From Sphaerochaeta halotolerans (GTDB lineage Bacteria > Spirochaetota > Spirochaetia > Sphaerochaetales > Sphaerochaetaceae): a stretch of 64,000 nucleotides of DNA. The stretch is taken from positions 1 to 64,000 of the forward strand of contig NZ_QUWK01000011.1 in NCBI RefSeq assembly GCF_003429665.1, read 5' to 3'. Both the position numbers and the translations under genes were made by a program. Positions 5,018 through 56,987 of this stretch are shown here, in pieces; position 1 is the stretch's first letter, and the number at the start of each line of letters is the position of its first letter. Under the pieces are notes generated by a model, which saw nothing but the letters and a program-made list of their open reading frames with translations, ran no database searches and had not been told where the DNA came from.

Positions 5018-5330
5018 CCCATTCCAACAAAAAAAGCCTTCATGCCCTCACCCTACCGGGTGGCATGTTCCACTTCCGGCAAGGACGAAGACATGAAAGC
5101 TCTCATGTTCCGCGGTTCCACCTTGCTTCCCTTCCCAGCTTATTCACTCTGGGAAAGACACTCATTGCACCTGTATCGCCAGGTATGCGGCATGGCCTAC
5201 TAACTGATGCGTTCGACCTGCAGCTCAAAAGGGGTTTTCATCGGGCGCCATTCAGACTTCTCTCAACCAAGGAAGTCCTCTCTTTGAATCCGCTACCGAC
5301 TACTCGTCTTTCTCATCGCCTTGTCCTATA
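5018..5330 (-). promoter_or_regulatory. T-box leader of thrS with candidate Thr (ACC) specifier
   Basis: minus strand: GATGAGAAAGACGAGTAGT (K-turn/AGTA region), AGAGAG and GGTTG distal elements, GAAAACCCCTTTTGAGCTG specifier region, GGTGGAACCGCGG T-box core (5110-5122), antiterminator GCAAGG...CCTTGC (5126/5079), terminator AGCTTTCATG...CATGAAGGCT+TTTTTTT (5101 to 5029). Confidence 0.88.
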
Positions 5331-20086: not shown

Positions 20087-20287
20087 TCAGTAACGGGAAC
20101 GGAGCCAAAATGGCTCCGTTTTTTTAGTCTGGTAGGTTACCCCATCACGTGTAACTTCTGAGGTGAACATCTGATAGGGACGAACCCACAAGTAATTACT
20201 GTCATTTGGGCGGTACAGCACCATGGTGGAGAGCAATTCACTCTCAATGACCGTGTCCACCACTTGGTACAAGCCTCCCTTGAAATG
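20087..20287 (-). pseudogene. DUF1653 relic truncated at both ends
   Basis: HFKGGLYQVVDTVIESELLSTMVLYRPNDSNYLWVRPYQMFTSEVTRDGV; no ATG/GTG start before an in-frame TGA; 5' side enters the 157-bp repeat, 3' side reads through the 20099-20126 terminator. Confidence 0.6.
20099..20126 (+). terminator. terminator of the RRM gene
   Basis: AACGGAGCC-AAAAT-GGCTCCGTT + T-run. Confidence 0.85.
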
Positions 20288-20440
20288 AAAGGTATCAATA
20301 CCTCAGGGCAAGCCCTGGACTCAGGAGGCGTTGCCTCCTTTTCCGCCCCAAAGGACGAGGTATCTCACCTTGCTTTCCCGGCACTCGCCCCAGAGAGGAA
20401 CCTTCCTTCTGATTCCTTTCCTCTCGCTCCGTTGGGGAAT
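20284..20440 (+). repeat. copy A of a ~157-bp structured dispersed repeat
   Basis: near-identical to 25311-25466: AATGAAAGGTATCAATACC...GGACTCAGGAGGCGTTGCCTCCTTTTCCGCCCCAA...GTTGGGGAAT. Confidence 0.92.
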
Positions 20441-20473
20441 GACGATACCATCCCCTTTGTATCTGCTGGGGAA

Positions 20474-22336
20474 CTACCATGCCCCACCGCCTCCACCGCC
20501 AAAACCGCCGCCAGAGAATCCACTGGAGCCAAACGAGGAGTGGATGGGGGATCGAGAACCACTCTTTGCCTGTGCATATACTGCCTTTTCCATGACACTG
20601 GTATGCATCCTATGGCTTAGTGCACTATAGAACAGTGCATTTCTAATCGGCCGGTTCCCCATATACCACTGCGGCTCAGCGAGCGCTATTTTTGCGAACT
20701 TTTTTGCCCAGACATCTTCCAACCCAAGCACGATAGCATAGCTGAGGACGTGGTAGAACAGTGATGGGTCGCTGTCGATCATCATTTTCAGCTTGTCCAT
20801 TTCCACCTTGCTTATGAATTCGCGATATCCCACAATCTCCTCAAGTTTCTTCTGGGCATACGTACTGCGTTTTCCTGTAACGATGGCCAGGAATCCGAGA
20901 TACGCAGGAATAGCAACAAGGAATAACGCCATGACTACCGAGTAGAAGACACCATGTCCAAATACGGAATTCATGAACAAAAAAGCAAATCCAAAGAGGA
21001 CGATTGCCGAGACACCAAGCAGGAAAAACTTGAATCCCTTCTTGAAAGCGGAAGAAGTCTCCCAGATGGCATTGAGGCGACTGGCAACCAAAGCAAAAAC
21101 GCCAAGGCTGGAGAAGCCAACTACCAAGAACACCACCGTTTCAGTGCCAATGTAGGATATTGTAGAGGCAATCGCCAACATAACTACCGAGAGGGCACCA
21201 TACAACATGGCAGCAATACGCTTGCGTTCTGCCTTTCCATCCCTAAGCTCCCGCTCTCCCTTGAAATAGGAACGAACCTCCGTTTTTGCCTTCTCAAGAT
21301 CTTTGCTGAAAGTCCCTTTCTCCAACTGTTTGAGCGTCACTTCTGTACCATCCCCACAGGCAAACAGTGCAGAAAACAGATGTTTTTCGTGTGCCTTGGT
21401 GGTAGCGGGCTCCTTGATCTTGGTAAAGGTGAACTCCTTCTTGCTGAGTTCGCTGATGGTCAAGCAACCTTGGTCTGCCCAGTAGAAAATCATGCTGGTT
21501 AGATCTTTGTTATCAACTACCCCATCGGCCAAATAACCCACTTCCATCGGAGAAAGATCCTCTGGAGGATCAAAACGCACTACAGGAACAAAGAGCTCCT
21601 CTTTTCCATAGCGGCGGAAAAGGAATGTAGCATGCACTGTGGCAGCAAATGCAACCAAGATGGCAAAGATTGATGCAGGAATGGTGAAATCTATAAAAGG
21701 GCGCACATCAGAATAGTATCCCTCATCCATCTGCACCCGTAGGGTAAGTGCTTCTCCTGGGTACAGGTCATTCGCTTCCCCTGTTATTGTTTTTCCATCA
21801 GCACTAATGGAAAAACTTCCACGTTGTGCAGTGGATCCATATGTTCCCCCGGTAAGAAAGACCAGGGAACGATCAATAGGTTTGGGTAAGTTCACGGTAA
21901 AGGAAACATGCTGTATGGGAGCTTGCCACCCTACCCCTACAATATTGTAGTAAAACTCATCATATTCATCGTTTCTGTCGTCACCGATGGCGTAGTCATA
22001 CCTGATCTGGTACTCCTGGATACCTGTCACTGTCCTGTTCTCCGATCCAAGACGGAACGTGGCATACCCAGAGGAAACCGAGTCCCTAACAATCGGCACG
22101 TTGGCCTCAAGGTTGGTGAGCTTCACGTTCTGTCGACCAAAGAGAACCGGTATTTCCCGGTAGATACCATGTCGAGGAGAAGAGAAATCAACAACAATGT
22201 GTTCCTGCACTGCGTAACTATTATCCAGTCTTACATCAACTTGTAAATCATATGACTCAAATTGATAGTCCACTGCAGGCAATAGCACCAGAGTGAAAGA
22301 GACAACCCATAGCAACAACAGTGGTTTTTTTACCAT
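20474..22336 (-). CDS. DUF2207 predicted membrane protein with Gly-rich C-terminus
   Basis: N-terminal DUF2207-like domain, multiple TM, C-terminal SGGGFGGGGGGAW; partnered with lemA. Confidence 0.85.
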   Translation of the reverse strand: MVKKPLLLLWVVSFTLVLLPAVDYQFESYDLQVDVRLDNSYAVQEHIVVDFSSPRHGIYREIPVLFGRQNVKLTNLEANVPIVRDSVSSGYATFRLGSENRTVTGIQEYQIRYDYAIGDDRNDEYDEFYYNIVGVGWQAPIQHVSFTVNLPKPIDRSLVFLTGGTYGSTAQRGSFSISADGKTITGEANDLYPGEALTLRVQMDEGYYSDVRPFIDFTIPASIFAILVAFAATVHATFLFRRYGKEELFVPVVRFDPPEDLSPMEVGYLADGVVDNKDLTSMIFYWADQGCLTISELSKKEFTFTKIKEPATTKAHEKHLFSALFACGDGTEVTLKQLEKGTFSKDLEKAKTEVRSYFKGERELRDGKAERKRIAAMLYGALSVVMLAIASTISYIGTETVVFLVVGFSSLGVFALVASRLNAIWETSSAFKKGFKFFLLGVSAIVLFGFAFLFMNSVFGHGVFYSVVMALFLVAIPAYLGFLAIVTGKRSTYAQKKLEEIVGYREFISKVEMDKLKMMIDSDPSLFYHVLSYAIVLGLEDVWAKKFAKIALAEPQWYMGNRPIRNALFYSALSHRMHTSVMEKAVYAQAKSGSRSPIHSSFGSSGFSGGGFGGGGGGAW

Positions 22337-22887
22337 TAAAACTTCACCTCTACACGAGCTCTGGCCTCCTCCTCGATTTCCAAATAGGGTTTCTTAGAGA
22401 AATGTGCCATGGAAGCTATGATCGAAGAAGGGAATACCTCACAAATGGTGTTCAATTGCTTGATAATGGCGTTGTAGTACTTACGAGCGCCCAACAATTG
22501 TTCTTCAATCTTCTGCAGCTGAGCTTGGAGGTCCAAAAATCCTTGGTTTGCCTTCAAGTCAGGATATGCCTCACTGAGGGCAAACAGAGATTTAAGGGTG
22601 GAACTGAAGGCATTATTTGCCTCATTCTTGTCTACCATTCCCGTTGCATTCATCGCCATATTCCTTGCCTCAATGACCTTTCGCAACGTCTCTTCCTCAT
22701 GCTTGGCATACCCTTTCACCGTCTCAACAAGATTAGGTACTAGGTCATAGCGCTGTTTAAGGTGGGCATCAATTGCCGACTCTGCTTCTTCAGCCTGATT
22801 TCGTAGCCGAACGTACCGGTTATAGATACTAATCCCATACAAGACAAGCAGAAGCACCACTGCAATCAATAGATAGGCAATTGTCAT
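22336..22887 (-). CDS. LemA family protein
   Basis: N-terminal TM, YNRYVRLRNQAEEAESAIDAHLKQRYDLVPNLVETVKGYAKHEEETL. Confidence 0.95.
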   Translation of the reverse strand: MTIAYLLIAVVLLLVLYGISIYNRYVRLRNQAEEAESAIDAHLKQRYDLVPNLVETVKGYAKHEEETLRKVIEARNMAMNATGMVDKNEANNAFSSTLKSLFALSEAYPDLKANQGFLDLQAQLQKIEEQLLGARKYYNAIIKQLNTICEVFPSSIIASMAHFSKKPYLEIEEEARARVEVKF

Positions 22888-22995
22888 ACAATCCTCTCCT
22901 TACTCCATACTAATGTGTAGCATGCAATATGCGGAAGCTCCGGTCAAGAGTTCGACAAAAAGAAGCTATGAAGCTTGCAATGGAAGCGATTGTAC

Positions 22996-23009
22996 TGTAT
23001 CTTTATTCG
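22996..23009 (+). promoter_or_regulatory. candidate ARG box 1 upstream of argR
   Basis: TGTATCTTTATTCG. Confidence 0.45.
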
Positions 23010-23017
23010 TGTAAAAC

Positions 23018-23031
23018 GCATAAATATTCCA
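23018..23031 (+). promoter_or_regulatory. candidate ARG box 2 upstream of argR
   Basis: GCATAAATATTCCA, 22 bp from box 1, similar to motifs upstream of carA. Confidence 0.55.
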
Positions 23032-23050
23032 TTCCAGGAGAATCCAAACC

Positions 23051-23521
23051 ATGAGGGAACGACACAACCGGTTGGCGGTCGTCAAAGAACTTATCAAGAA
23101 TAATAGGATCGACAACCAGGATACGCTGCTGGAGATGCTTAAAACCGAGGGGTATACAGTTACACAGGCTACGTTATCCCGCGATTTGAAGATGCTCAAG
23201 GTCGGAAAAATTTCCGACGGTTGGTCAGGCTACTACTATAGTTTGCCGGAAAATGACTTAATCAGTGAATCAGAGAAGAGCTACATTCAAGATGTACGAA
23301 GAGGAATCCTGTCCATAGAATTTTCAGGAAACTTCGGTGTCATCAAGACCAGACCGGGACATGCCAATTCGGTCGGTATTGCCTTGGATGTGCTGGCAAT
23401 CCCTGAGATTCTTGGAACCTTGGCCGGTGATGACACCATCTTTGTCATCCTCCGAGAAGGGATGACCAAGGAAGATCTGCAGGAGAGCTTCAAGACACGC
23501 ATCCCCGACATAGAAGAGTAA
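23051..23521 (+). CDS. argR: arginine repressor ArgR
   Basis: LKTEGYTVTQATLSRDLKMLKVGK; C-terminal GTLAGDDTIFVILR. Confidence 0.95.
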   Translation: MRERHNRLAVVKELIKNNRIDNQDTLLEMLKTEGYTVTQATLSRDLKMLKVGKISDGWSGYYYSLPENDLISESEKSYIQDVRRGILSIEFSGNFGVIKTRPGHANSVGIALDVLAIPEILGTLAGDDTIFVILREGMTKEDLQESFKTRIPDIEE

Positions 23522-23540
23522 TCATACCTTGCCTAGAAAC

Positions 23541-23568
23541 GCCCCTCCGCTTACAATGGAGGGGCTTT
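23541..23568 (+). terminator. terminator of argR
   Basis: GCCCCTCC-GCTTACAAT-GGAGGGGC-TTT. Confidence 0.75.
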
Positions 23569-23592
23569 CATCTACCATAAGGAGCAACCACA

Positions 23593-25164
23593 ATGACATA
23601 CAAAAATCTCGATACAAGTACGGCTTTCAAAACTCTGGGAGCTCTCGAGGCAAGTGACCTAAGACAAGTCCTGAATCCTGAGCGCATCAAAACCTACCAG
23701 GTCAAAGCCAGTGATACACTGATGTACAACTATGCGGCAATGCCAATTGATGAACACCATCTTTCGGTCCTACAACAGTTGAGTGACGAACTCCAACTTA
23801 CCCAGAAGTACCAAGCGCTCGTTGATGGAAACGTCATGAATACCGGAGAGAATCGCCTTGTGCTGCACCATCTCACCCGTGGCCAAGTAGGAAAAACTGT
23901 AGAAGCTGACGGTGAAGACAAAGGAGCTTTCTACCGAGAGCAACTTTCCAGGATCAAGACCTTTTCCGATGCAGTTCGAAGTGGAACCATTGTAGGTTCA
24001 ACGGGAAAACGGTTTACCACCGTTGTCCAGATAGGAATCGGGGGAAGCGACCTAGGGCCAAGAGCCATCTATCTGGCCTTGAAGGGGTGGTGTACAAGAG
24101 AGGGTATTGAGCAGTTGAATGCCCAATTCATCAGCAATGTCGACCCTGATGATGCACAGGCTGTAATCGAACAGCTAGATTTGGAGCGTACGCTCTTCAT
24201 CTTGGTTTCCAAGAGTGGGACGACACTGGAAACTCTGACCAACCGAGATTTGGTCATTGAAGCCATCAAGAAAAGTGGCATTACAGGAATAGACCCTTCT
24301 GCCCATATGGTTGCAGTAACCAGCAAGAGCAGTCCACTTGCATCCTCATCCTCTGTACTCGATGCCTTTTTCATCGATGACTATATTGGAGGAAGGTACA
24401 GCTCCACCAGTGCAGTAGGGGCTGTCATTCTCTCCTTGGCCTACGGCTTCGAAACGGTACAGTTGTTCCTTGAGGGTGCCCATCAAGCTGACTTGGCAGC
24501 ACAATCCCCAAAAATCAGCGAAAATGCTGCCTTGCTTGATGCACTGCTCGGTGTCTACCTGCGCAACGTCCTTCACTATCCCAGTACTGCCATTCTACCC
24601 TACTCACAGGCATTGAGCCGCTTCCCAGCACACTTGCAACAACTTGACATGGAGAGCAATGGAAAGCATGTAAACCGTGATGGTGAGACACTCTCCTATC
24701 CCACCGGACCTGTTATTTTTGGCGAGCCTGGGACCAATGGACAACACTCCTTCTACCAGTTGCTGCACCAAGGGACCGATATCGTTCCTCTGCAGTTCAT
24801 TGGATTCTCTGTTTCCCAGTATGAGAAGGATATTCAGGTGGAAGGTTCGAGCAGCCAAGAAAAGCTCAATGCCAATCTGGTCGCCCAGATTGTAGCCTTT
24901 GCACGTGGAAAGGATGATACGAATCCTAATAAGCAGTTCTGTGGAAACCGACCAAGCAGCTTGCTCTACGCAAAACAGCTTAACCCTTCGGTCTTGGGTT
25001 CCTTGTTGGCACACTATGAGAATAAGGTGATGTTCCAAGGATTCATCTGGAATCTCAATAGTTTCGACCAGGAAGGGGTCCAATTGGGAAAGGTACTCGC
25101 AACCAAGGTTCTCAATGGCTGTGAAGGAGACGAGGTACTCGAATCCTTTATCGGCCTTCTGTAA
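23593..25164 (+). CDS. pgi: glucose-6-phosphate isomerase
   Basis: QIGIGGSDLGPRAIYLAL, VSKSGTTLETLTN, GEPGTNGQHSFYQLLHQGT. Confidence 0.95.
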   Translation: MTYKNLDTSTAFKTLGALEASDLRQVLNPERIKTYQVKASDTLMYNYAAMPIDEHHLSVLQQLSDELQLTQKYQALVDGNVMNTGENRLVLHHLTRGQVGKTVEADGEDKGAFYREQLSRIKTFSDAVRSGTIVGSTGKRFTTVVQIGIGGSDLGPRAIYLALKGWCTREGIEQLNAQFISNVDPDDAQAVIEQLDLERTLFILVSKSGTTLETLTNRDLVIEAIKKSGITGIDPSAHMVAVTSKSSPLASSSSVLDAFFIDDYIGGRYSSTSAVGAVILSLAYGFETVQLFLEGAHQADLAAQSPKISENAALLDALLGVYLRNVLHYPSTAILPYSQALSRFPAHLQQLDMESNGKHVNRDGETLSYPTGPVIFGEPGTNGQHSFYQLLHQGTDIVPLQFIGFSVSQYEKDIQVEGSSSQEKLNANLVAQIVAFARGKDDTNPNKQFCGNRPSSLLYAKQLNPSVLGSLLAHYENKVMFQGFIWNLNSFDQEGVQLGKVLATKVLNGCEGDEVLESFIGLL

Positions 25165-25177
25165 CACATCCTCTCCT

Positions 25178-25204
25178 CGGCCCCCGATTGGGGGCCGAAT
25201 TATT
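25178..25204 (+). terminator. terminator of pgi
   Basis: CGGCCCCC-GATT-GGGGGCCG. Confidence 0.7.
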
Positions 25205-25310
25205 CCTCACGTATCCTGCTTGCCTATGAAGGAAGAGATAAGTACTATTGTTATAAACTCAACAATAAAGTGTGAAGATTGAAAAAAGAACAACGACAGA
25301 TCGGCCATAC

Positions 25311-25466
25311 AATGAAAGGTATCAATACCCCAGGGCAGCCCTGGACTCAGGAGGCGTTGCCTCCTTTTCCGCCCCAAGGGACGGGGTATCTCACCTTGCT
25401 TTCCCGGCACTCGCTCCAGAGAGGAACCTTCCTGCTGATTCCTTTCCTCTCGCTCCGTTGGGGAAT
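25311..25466 (+). repeat. copy B of the ~157-bp structured dispersed repeat
   Basis: near-identical to 20284-20440, same orientation, a few substitutions and one 1-bp indel. Confidence 0.92.
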
Positions 25467-25496
25467 AAAGACACTCTCACAGCTCCTCCAGGGGAG

Positions 25497-25806
25497 CATG
25501 ACGACGATGGTGAACCTTGAAGATGAGTGCAACGGCACTGTTGTGCAAAGTCGCCTTCTTGGGTATTTCGCTCATTATAAGAAAATCTGTTTACTGCAAA
25601 GCGAATTGCAACAGCAATTGAGTATCCATCGTTCAACCATAGCCAATATGCTCAAGGGAATGGAACGAGATGGCTTAATCCTGAGGAAAGGAACGGAAGA
25701 AGCAGGTGGTCCTGAGAGAGACAGCAATGATTCAATGCCCTAGAAAAGAACAACGAGCGCAGTTCTTCACAATTACTGATCAAATCAGAAGGAATTTGGA
25801 AATAAT
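25497..25806 (+). pseudogene. degraded MarR-type regulator upstream of ABC exporter genes
   Basis: winged-helix LQSELQQQLSIHRSTIANMLKGMERDGLILRK, then frame loss; MarR-like RAQFFTITDQIRRNLEI continues in another frame up to the ABC start. Confidence 0.55.
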
Positions 25807-54176: not shown

Positions 54177-54860
54177 ATGATGCAGATGTTCAAAAGAATC
54201 GCCGATATTTTCAACTCCCACGTAAACAGTGCTTTGGATAAACTTGAGGATCCGGAAAAGATGATCAACTTGATGATCACCGAACTTGAGGAAACCCAGA
54301 GCAAGGCCCGCTCATCGATGGCTGCAAGAAAAGCCGAGCAATTGAGCCTGGAGCGGGAGAAGGCAGAGTTGGAGAAATTGCTTCTTCGTTGGGAAGACCG
54401 TGCCAAATTGGCAATTACCAACGGAAGGGAGGATCTTGCCCGTGAAGCCTTGATCGAAAAGAACAATACAAATTCACGTATCAAGCGCATCGAAGAGCTT
54501 GAAACAAACCTGCAGACCATTCTTGCCAGTCAGAGCAGCCAGCTTACCCAGATTGCCGACAAGCTCAAGGAAGTAAAGGATAAGCAACAGATTCTTGTCC
54601 AGAGAGCAAGAAGCGCCAAGGAGAAGAAACAGGTTGCCGACACCTTGAAAAGCAGTGACAGTACAGACTTGGCTCGCAAGTTCAGTGAACTCGAGAGCAA
54701 GATTGAACGCATGGAAGCAGACGCAGAAATGGCCGGCTATCATGGTACCGCCAGTGCTGCCGATGAATTCAGCAAGATGGAAAATGAAAGTGAAATTGAT
54801 GCAGAGATGGAACAGCTGAAGGCATCGATGAGCAAGAAGAAAGAGAAGGAGCAGAAGTAA
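54177..54860 (+). CDS. pspA: PspA/IM30 family protein (arm 1)
   Basis: MFKRIADIFNSHVNSALDKLEDPEKMINLMITELEE coiled-coil. Confidence 0.93.
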   Translation: MMQMFKRIADIFNSHVNSALDKLEDPEKMINLMITELEETQSKARSSMAARKAEQLSLEREKAELEKLLLRWEDRAKLAITNGREDLAREALIEKNNTNSRIKRIEELETNLQTILASQSSQLTQIADKLKEVKDKQQILVQRARSAKEKKQVADTLKSSDSTDLARKFSELESKIERMEADAEMAGYHGTASAADEFSKMENESEIDAEMEQLKASMSKKKEKEQK

Positions 54861-56333: not shown

Positions 56334-56987
56334 ATGGGAGTTTTTTCAAGATTCTTGGATATTGTTAATGCAAACATCAACTCACTATTGGACAAAGCAG
56401 AAGATCCCGAAAAGATGATCAAGTTGATGATGCAGGAGATGGAAGATACTCTTATTGAGCTCAAGAGTTCCTGTGCCGCAAAAATGGCCAGCAGAGCAAA
56501 GGCTGACCGTACCTATAAAGAAGCACTCAATGCTGTGGAACGCTGGCAGAGTCGAGCAGAACTTGCCATAAGCAAGGGACGTGAAGATTTGGCACGGGAG
56601 GCACTACTTGAGAAAAAGCAAGCCAAGGCAGCACTCGATCGCCTTAAAGAGGAACTTACTACCTATGATGAGGTAATCAAAACTGCAAAGAGTGAAATCA
56701 ACCAGATTGAAGACAAGCTTACCACCGTGAAGCAGAAGTATCAAATGATGGTTGAGAGGGCTAAACGGGCGAAGGAAGAACAAGCTGCCCAGGAAACCCT
56801 CAGACGGGCAAGCGATGGGAGCACCTTTCACCACTTCAATGATATGGAAGAGAAGATTGACCGGATGCAGGCTGATAAGGACCTGAACCACAGTAGCGCT
56901 ACCTTGGACGAAAAGTTCCGAGACCTCGAGGAGATGGATGACATCGATGCTGAGATCGAGGAATTGCGTAAACGCGCCGGCATGTGA
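56334..56987 (+). CDS. pspA: PspA/IM30 family protein (arm 2)
   Basis: MGVFSRFLDIVNANINSLLDKAEDPEKMIKLMMQEMEDTL. Confidence 0.93.
   Translation: MGVFSRFLDIVNANINSLLDKAEDPEKMIKLMMQEMEDTLIELKSSCAAKMASRAKADRTYKEALNAVERWQSRAELAISKGREDLAREALLEKKQAKAALDRLKEELTTYDEVIKTAKSEINQIEDKLTTVKQKYQMMVERAKRAKEEQAAQETLRRASDGSTFHHFNDMEEKIDRMQADKDLNHSSATLDEKFRDLEEMDDIDAEIEELRKRAGM

Follow-up and report, generated by a model that had tools for sequence, protein, structure and literature searches.

Insertion sequences of the IS200/IS605 superfamily, the REP/BIME repeats with their RAYT partners, and the PATEs of Haloquadratum are the closest described systems to the repeat reported here. IS608 and its relatives insert in an orientation that favors the lagging-strand template (PMC5371812, PMC6006769), REPs are known targets for insertion sequences (PMC1525189), and the Y1 proteins of subclass 2.1 are domesticated and without a known REP partner (PMC6006769). 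The nearest published case in the Spirochaetia is that of the Borrelia IS605 stem-loops (PMC2775950), and our literature searches gave no published family of this kind in the class and, in the open-access text searched, no description of this repeat family. The repeat adds to the Spirochaetia a well-delimited, high-copy, and probably single-strand-transposed element, and was recognized in a window of 64,000 nucleotides (the whole stretch of DNA that was analyzed) from Sphaerochaeta halotolerans.

The original prediction was of two direct copies in unrelated contexts, at 20284-20440 and 25311-25466, and both are real and 96% identical, with one 1-bp indel between them. Copy 1 is intergenic, between a gene for an RRM protein and a DUF2207 gene, and copy 2 lies inside a marR-like gene, bearing out the unrelated contexts. 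A DNA search of the genome assembly (2.93 Mb, 49 contigs) with the repeat gave at least 41 matches, with the best 40 of 93 candidates scored, and the left-end 19-mer AATGAAAGGTATCAATACC occurs 85 times at two mismatches or fewer (69 exact) compared with no matches for the reversed pattern in the same genome, which puts the family at about 85 left ends. With this many copies, and with the empty sites described below, the pair is neither chance nor a local duplication, and tandem duplication is ruled out as its origin. The prediction had staked itself on the copies not being just two from one local duplication, and on pairing being kept across copies; both points were examined, and the finding survived.

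Outside this genome, at least 20 Spirochaetia genomes have related copies. The repeat was found in 14 of 60 relatives, with up to ∼190 candidates in one genome, and in 20 of the 297 genomes that evenly sample the class, spanning at least six families; the named records are of Sphaerochaeta and of other Spirochaetia metagenome-assembled genomes (MAGs). Searches of plasmid and phage collections gave no match, and 19-mer matches in Polynucleobacter and a Flavobacteriaceae MAG were set aside as bare 19-mers without the remainder of the element. In one genome (G238; L285:498-1056, in G238:C92) the repeat forms a head-to-tail tandem array with a period of 153 to 154 bp, and the junction falls exactly between the element ends with no spacer. 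The WGCU assembly has short, nearly perfect palindromic forms, AATGAAAGGTATCAATACCCC...GGGGTATTGATACCTTTCG (L111:7016-7060 and L124:4800-4843), which are possibly an ancestral or minimal form of the repeat. The repeat would account for spurious small open reading frames (ORFs) in these genomes and probably for some of their assembly breaks. We note that the window has another direct repeat (54194-54277 and 56348-56431, 70% identical), which is probably two related coding segments.

The boundaries of the unit are fixed by three empty sites, two in relatives and one in the same genome, at which the net insertion is 153 to 154 bp (Table 1). The standard length is 154 bp, and the reverse strand reads CCCCAACGG...GATACCTTTCATT. 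At the copy 1 site, relatives without the element keep a single AATGA, with G009 reading ...CCCTTGA/AATGACGATACC (slashes mark junctions). At the copy 2 site (the GPI locus), the four relatives G009, G011, G013, and G001 read CATAC/CATAAAAAC and the window reads CATAC/AATGAAAGG...GGGG/AATAAAGAC; in a longer reading these are CATAC/CATAAAAACAC and CATAC/AATGAAAGG...GGGG/AATAAAGACAC. The pair within the same genome (L195/L197) is an IS200-type tnpA, continuous at the site in C48 (TTTTATT/GCCAATC) and interrupted by the element in C47 (TTTTATT/CCCCAACGG...CCTTTCATT/GCCAATC). None of 100 copies has an exact target duplication of at least 4 bp, and no duplication is detectable at the three empty sites; ATT is common to the target and the element end, so the exact cut is ambiguous by three bases. 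The ends, CCCCAACGG... and ...CCTTTCATT, are not inverted repeats, as the original prediction had held, and a transposon with terminal inverted repeats (TIRs) and target site duplication was rejected with no TIR and no repeat of at least 4 bp. It had also seen no transposase, and indeed none is carried by the copies, which at 153 to 154 bp have no coding capacity and are too short for an ORF the size of tnpA.

Table 1. Positions of the two element copies, their targets, and associated features in the window
Feature	Position	Strand	Basis or remark
Copy 1 of element	20284..20437	-	154 bp, reading CCCCAACGG...GATACCTTTCATT on the transposon (-) strand; empty sites in G009, G011, G001, G013; right-flank statistics
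Copy 1 target trinucleotide ATT (AAT on +)	20438..20440	-	Adjoins CCCC end; single in G009 empty site; full target on - strand GTCATT
Copy 2 of element	25311..25463	-	153 bp; empty sites in G009, G013, G011, G001
Copy 2 target trinucleotide ATT	25464..25466	-	Target on - strand CTTTATT
Decayed marR-type gene with copy 2 in frame near 5' end	25279..25743	+	ORF of relatives spans site; MarR match
P1, long imperfect stem (AAGGT/ACCTT + ATACC/GGTAT)	20289..20371	.	Closes domain beside TTTCATT end
Hairpin H1, YCAGGGC-AA-GCCCTGG	20303..20318	.	Helix 3 of covariation test
Hairpin H2, AGGAGGC-GTT-GCCTCCT then TTTT	20323..20339	.	Helices 4-5; terminator-like on + strand
Hairpin H3, GCCCC-AA-GGGC region	20345..20356	.	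Helix 6 of covariation test
Hairpin H6, near CCCC end	20397..20416	.	Helix 8; GGAACC...GGTTCC type in other copies

Across more than 100 copies, the left flanks are random, in contrast to the right flanks, where a strong pattern follows ...GGGGAAT: a base other than T (99%), then A (92%) and A (75%). Read on the reverse strand, the element is placed 3' of a TTNATT-like target and itself ends in TTTCATT. Among 63 copies in this genome, the target hexamers are TTCATT (28), TTTATT (9), and TTGATT (9), with the remainder including a few that have a different first base; all 63 end in ATT and 62 have T at the second place, and TTAATT is never a target among them. The commonest target, TTCATT, is also the element's own end.

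The orientation of the copies is strongly biased with respect to replication, using GC skew as a proxy for the leading and lagging strands. Local GC skew reaches 0.02 or more around 65 copies, and in 56 of these (86%; Fisher p = 2.8e-9) the strand ending in TTTCATT is the G-rich one. The G-rich strand carries 65% of coding bases, which supports its being the leading strand, and if so the TTTCATT-ended strand is the lagging-strand template. The same bias is seen in a second species (the JAEINL genome; 29:6, p = 1e-4) and in eleven other assemblies pooled (55:14, p = 7e-7), and it persists for copies between convergent or divergent genes (16:3) and is thus not a by-product of gene direction.

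Of the two readings offered by the original prediction, a non-autonomous mobile element is upheld by the empty sites, the lack of TIRs and of a target duplication, the strict target motif, and the strand bias, and a structured RNA or attenuator is not, as discussed below. The repeat is likely to be a ∼154-bp non-autonomous element that depends for its movement on an IS200/IS605-superfamily transposase of the Y1-HUH type, acting in trans. The spacer-free array in G238, the covarying hairpins, the scarcity of copies in ORFs, and the cleavage sequences shared with an IS200-like insertion sequence also favor this reading. In the cycle that we infer, with HUH chemistry, a circular intermediate, and mobilization in trans, the reverse strand of an element on the lagging-strand template would fold into subterminal hairpins. 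The enzyme would then cut on the left behind the TTNATT-like target and on the right behind TTTCATT, the element's own end. The cut element would be released as a single-stranded circle and joined to the 3' side of a new TTNATT site in single-stranded DNA. Knowledge of its target, its ends, and its replication bias makes the choice among Y1 proteins a matter for a simple cleavage test.

No autonomous element bearing these full ends turned up, and three interrupted copies considered as autonomous parents were rejected. L118 was first taken for such a parent because 1.5 kb separates the repeat halves; this DNA (L118:5325-6852) is an IS110-family insertion sequence (Pfam PF02371 and PF01548) in the loop of the GCCCC-AA-GGGGC hairpin (H3). 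A 159-bp noncoding insert splits the copy at L092 (L092:4782-4940), and a group II intron (Rfam; L120:1654-2060, - strand) directly follows the H2 sequence AGGAGGC-GTT-GCCTCCT-TTTT of the copy at L120. Class C group II introns insert behind terminators, and the position of the L120 intron is similar.

Two Y1 enzymes of this genome (G000) are candidates for the mobilizing activity. G000:C4 codes for a short IS200-type TnpA that matches the NCBIfam IS200 transposase (E = 5e-36) and has relatives in G293 and G289. The insertion sequences with this type of TnpA (in the same genome and G293) follow TTTATT or TTTGTT and end in TTCATT, cleavage sequences that match those of the repeat. In the insertion sequences at L154, L282, and L283, ATACC precedes the hairpins as it does in the repeat, with no extended similarity to it. 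The G000:C4 IS200-like TnpA is absent from most repeat-bearing genomes, and an L154-like TnpA was rejected as the sole mobilizer, its co-occurrence with the repeat having p = 0.24. G000:C16 codes for a single-copy 270-amino-acid Y1 protein that is a relative of REP-associated tyrosine transposases, although its match falls short of the family cut-off (E = 6e-17), has weak C-terminal helix-turn-helix matches, and resembles subclass 2.1 of PMC6006769.

It is doubtful that the repeat is the substrate of this single-copy, subclass 2.1-like Y1 protein with a C-terminal helix-turn-helix; if it were, an orphan class of chromosomal HUH proteins would for the first time have a dispersed DNA substrate, and the target motif would differ from GTAG. 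A narrower version of the single-strand reading, possible if on balance unlikely, is that the repeat is the REP-type partner of the RAYT-like G000:C16 protein and not an IS200 derivative. The repeat is extragenic with many copies, as this would suggest, and the two co-occur, both within the genus (9 with both, 3 with the protein only, 1 with the repeat only, and 13 with neither; p = 8e-4) and in the class sample, where 7 of 11 close G000:C16 homologues are in repeat genomes (p = 6e-7) and the closest homologues beyond the genus are mostly in such genomes; these statistics ignore shared ancestry. However, several genomes with the repeat (G056, G060, and G153) have no close homologue of G000:C16, and some complete genomes hold the repeat or the RAYT-like protein, one without the other. 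Moreover, the G000:C16-type gene lacks a flanking repeat in any genome examined, and a profile search for the repeat at the RAYT loci (L161-L168, L196, L203, L207, and L208) found none. The repeat is 154 bp compared with 21 to 65 bp, and no GTAG/GTGG or CGTC foot lies beside its hairpin, the conserved tag being AATGAAA/TTTCATT.

It is very unlikely that the repeat is instead a MITE derived from a DDE (cut-and-paste) transposon. The element would then measure 151 bp, have a strict TTNATT target, and duplicate 3 bp (ATT) on insertion. ATT does flank almost all copies at both ends, and a constant 3-bp duplication fits the sequence equally well, but neither of the ends CCCCAACGG and GAAAGGTATC is an inverted repeat of the other, a bias of 86% toward one replication strand is typical of single-strand transposition, and the G238 array joins copies head to tail without a spacer.

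The folded structure was evaluated by covariation in 34 divergent copies against 500 shuffles, noting that the shuffling ignores relatedness. The structure tested, composed of the long stem P1, hairpins H1, H2, and H3, a closing stem TTCCC/GGGAA, and the distal hairpin H6, keeps 89.9% of pairs versus 84.5% in shuffles and has 62 cells with both sides changed versus 15; on every measure none of the 500 shuffles reaches the observed value, and pairing falls to ∼51% when the partner is slid by one column. The closing stem is partly built of target bases and is to be read with care. In P1, 20289-20293 pairs with 20367-20371 and 20298-20302 with 20359-20363 (helices 1 and 2, with 97.6% and 91.1% of cells paired). 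Palindromes with compensatory changes are near both termini, P1 by the TTTCATT end and H6 by the CCCC end. Compensatory changes also bear out two hairpins proposed at the outset, CAGGGC-AA-GCCCTG and AGGAGGC-GTT-GCCTCCT, but not the outer stems CCCCAA...TTGGGG and GAGAGGAA...TTTCCTCTC, which have 71.9% of cells paired versus 71.0% in shuffles and covariation no better than slid versions. The proposed GGTAT-CA-ATACC hairpin has no covariation, and its sequence makes better sense as an arm of a longer stem formed with GGGGTATnnnACC.

Covarying hairpins could also be expected of a structured RNA or an attenuator/terminator family kept for a function in the transcript; H2 with its TTTT is terminator-like and hosts the L120 intron, and convergent intergenic gaps are over-represented (13/41 copies versus 28/181). 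We nonetheless consider this reading most improbable, given the precise presence or absence of the repeat with a fixed target motif, its location within genes in some copies, and an orientation that tracks replication and not transcription; between tandem genes, 16 of 23 copies oppose the gene direction. Mismatches in the helices on the + strand are 31 G-T versus 51 A-C (events that are not independent), giving no + strand preference of the kind sought for folding as RNA, so the fold fits single-stranded DNA hairpins at least as well as RNA. A terminator role is possible as a by-product. Rfam covariance models gave no match to the repeat, and the sole match in the window is elsewhere, a T-box leader at 5078-5325 on the - strand (RF00230, 96.5 bits).

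The copies avoid genes. With a simple ORF caller and a minimum of 100 codons, ORFs contain 17 of the 58 insertion points, compared with 84% of random points, and the other 41 are outside. Copy 2 lies in the 5' part of a marR-type gene. In relatives, the marR-type frame runs across the site (MKEEPRHIGHT/IKTLSHLL, assuming a TTG start), and in the window the 153-nucleotide insert, with a 1-bp deletion in the first hairpin loop, leaves the frame open. The window gene also lacks ∼65 bp present downstream in relatives, with an ABC transporter pair directly after, and this further shortening makes it a probable pseudogene. A palindromic element that inserts in frame into proteins, as the RPEs of Rickettsia do, to which the open copy 2 and the 17 of 58 copies in predicted ORFs might point, is barely tenable given the standard length of 154 nucleotides, the avoidance of genes, the decay of the marR gene, and the frame-restoring 1-bp deletion being a single case.

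Among known systems, DDE MITEs are similarly short, noncoding, and dispersed, but the repeat differs from them in having no terminal inverted repeats or variable target duplication and in its replication-strand bias. REP/BIME sequences with RAYT (TnpA-REP; PMC6006769, PMC3733652) are likewise high-copy, extragenic, and hairpin-based, many of the same genomes code for a single-copy Y1 protein, and insertion sequences insert into both (PMC1525189); the repeat, however, is much longer, and the RAYT-like gene has no flanking repeat. The repeat resembles IS200/IS605 elements (IS608 and ISDra2) in that it inserts 3' of a fixed short sequence with no duplication, has hairpins close to its ends and a terminal motif resembling the target, and is oriented with the lagging-strand template, although it has no internal tnpA or tnpB; it works like IS608-type elements and is not a canonical REP. 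As in the PATEs of Haloquadratum (PMC3119063), there are no TIRs, the palindromes are near-terminal, no target duplication is detectable, and many near-identical copies, too short for a transposase, are often hit by mobile elements. PATE ends are clearly common to IS605-type transposons of the same genome (PMC3119063), whereas the repeat shares only cleavage sequences and the ATACC-hairpin motif with insertion sequences, and its covarying fold is larger and its range extends over several families of the Spirochaetia. With four of the five features that define PATEs, the repeat is a homogeneous PATE in anatomy and behavior.
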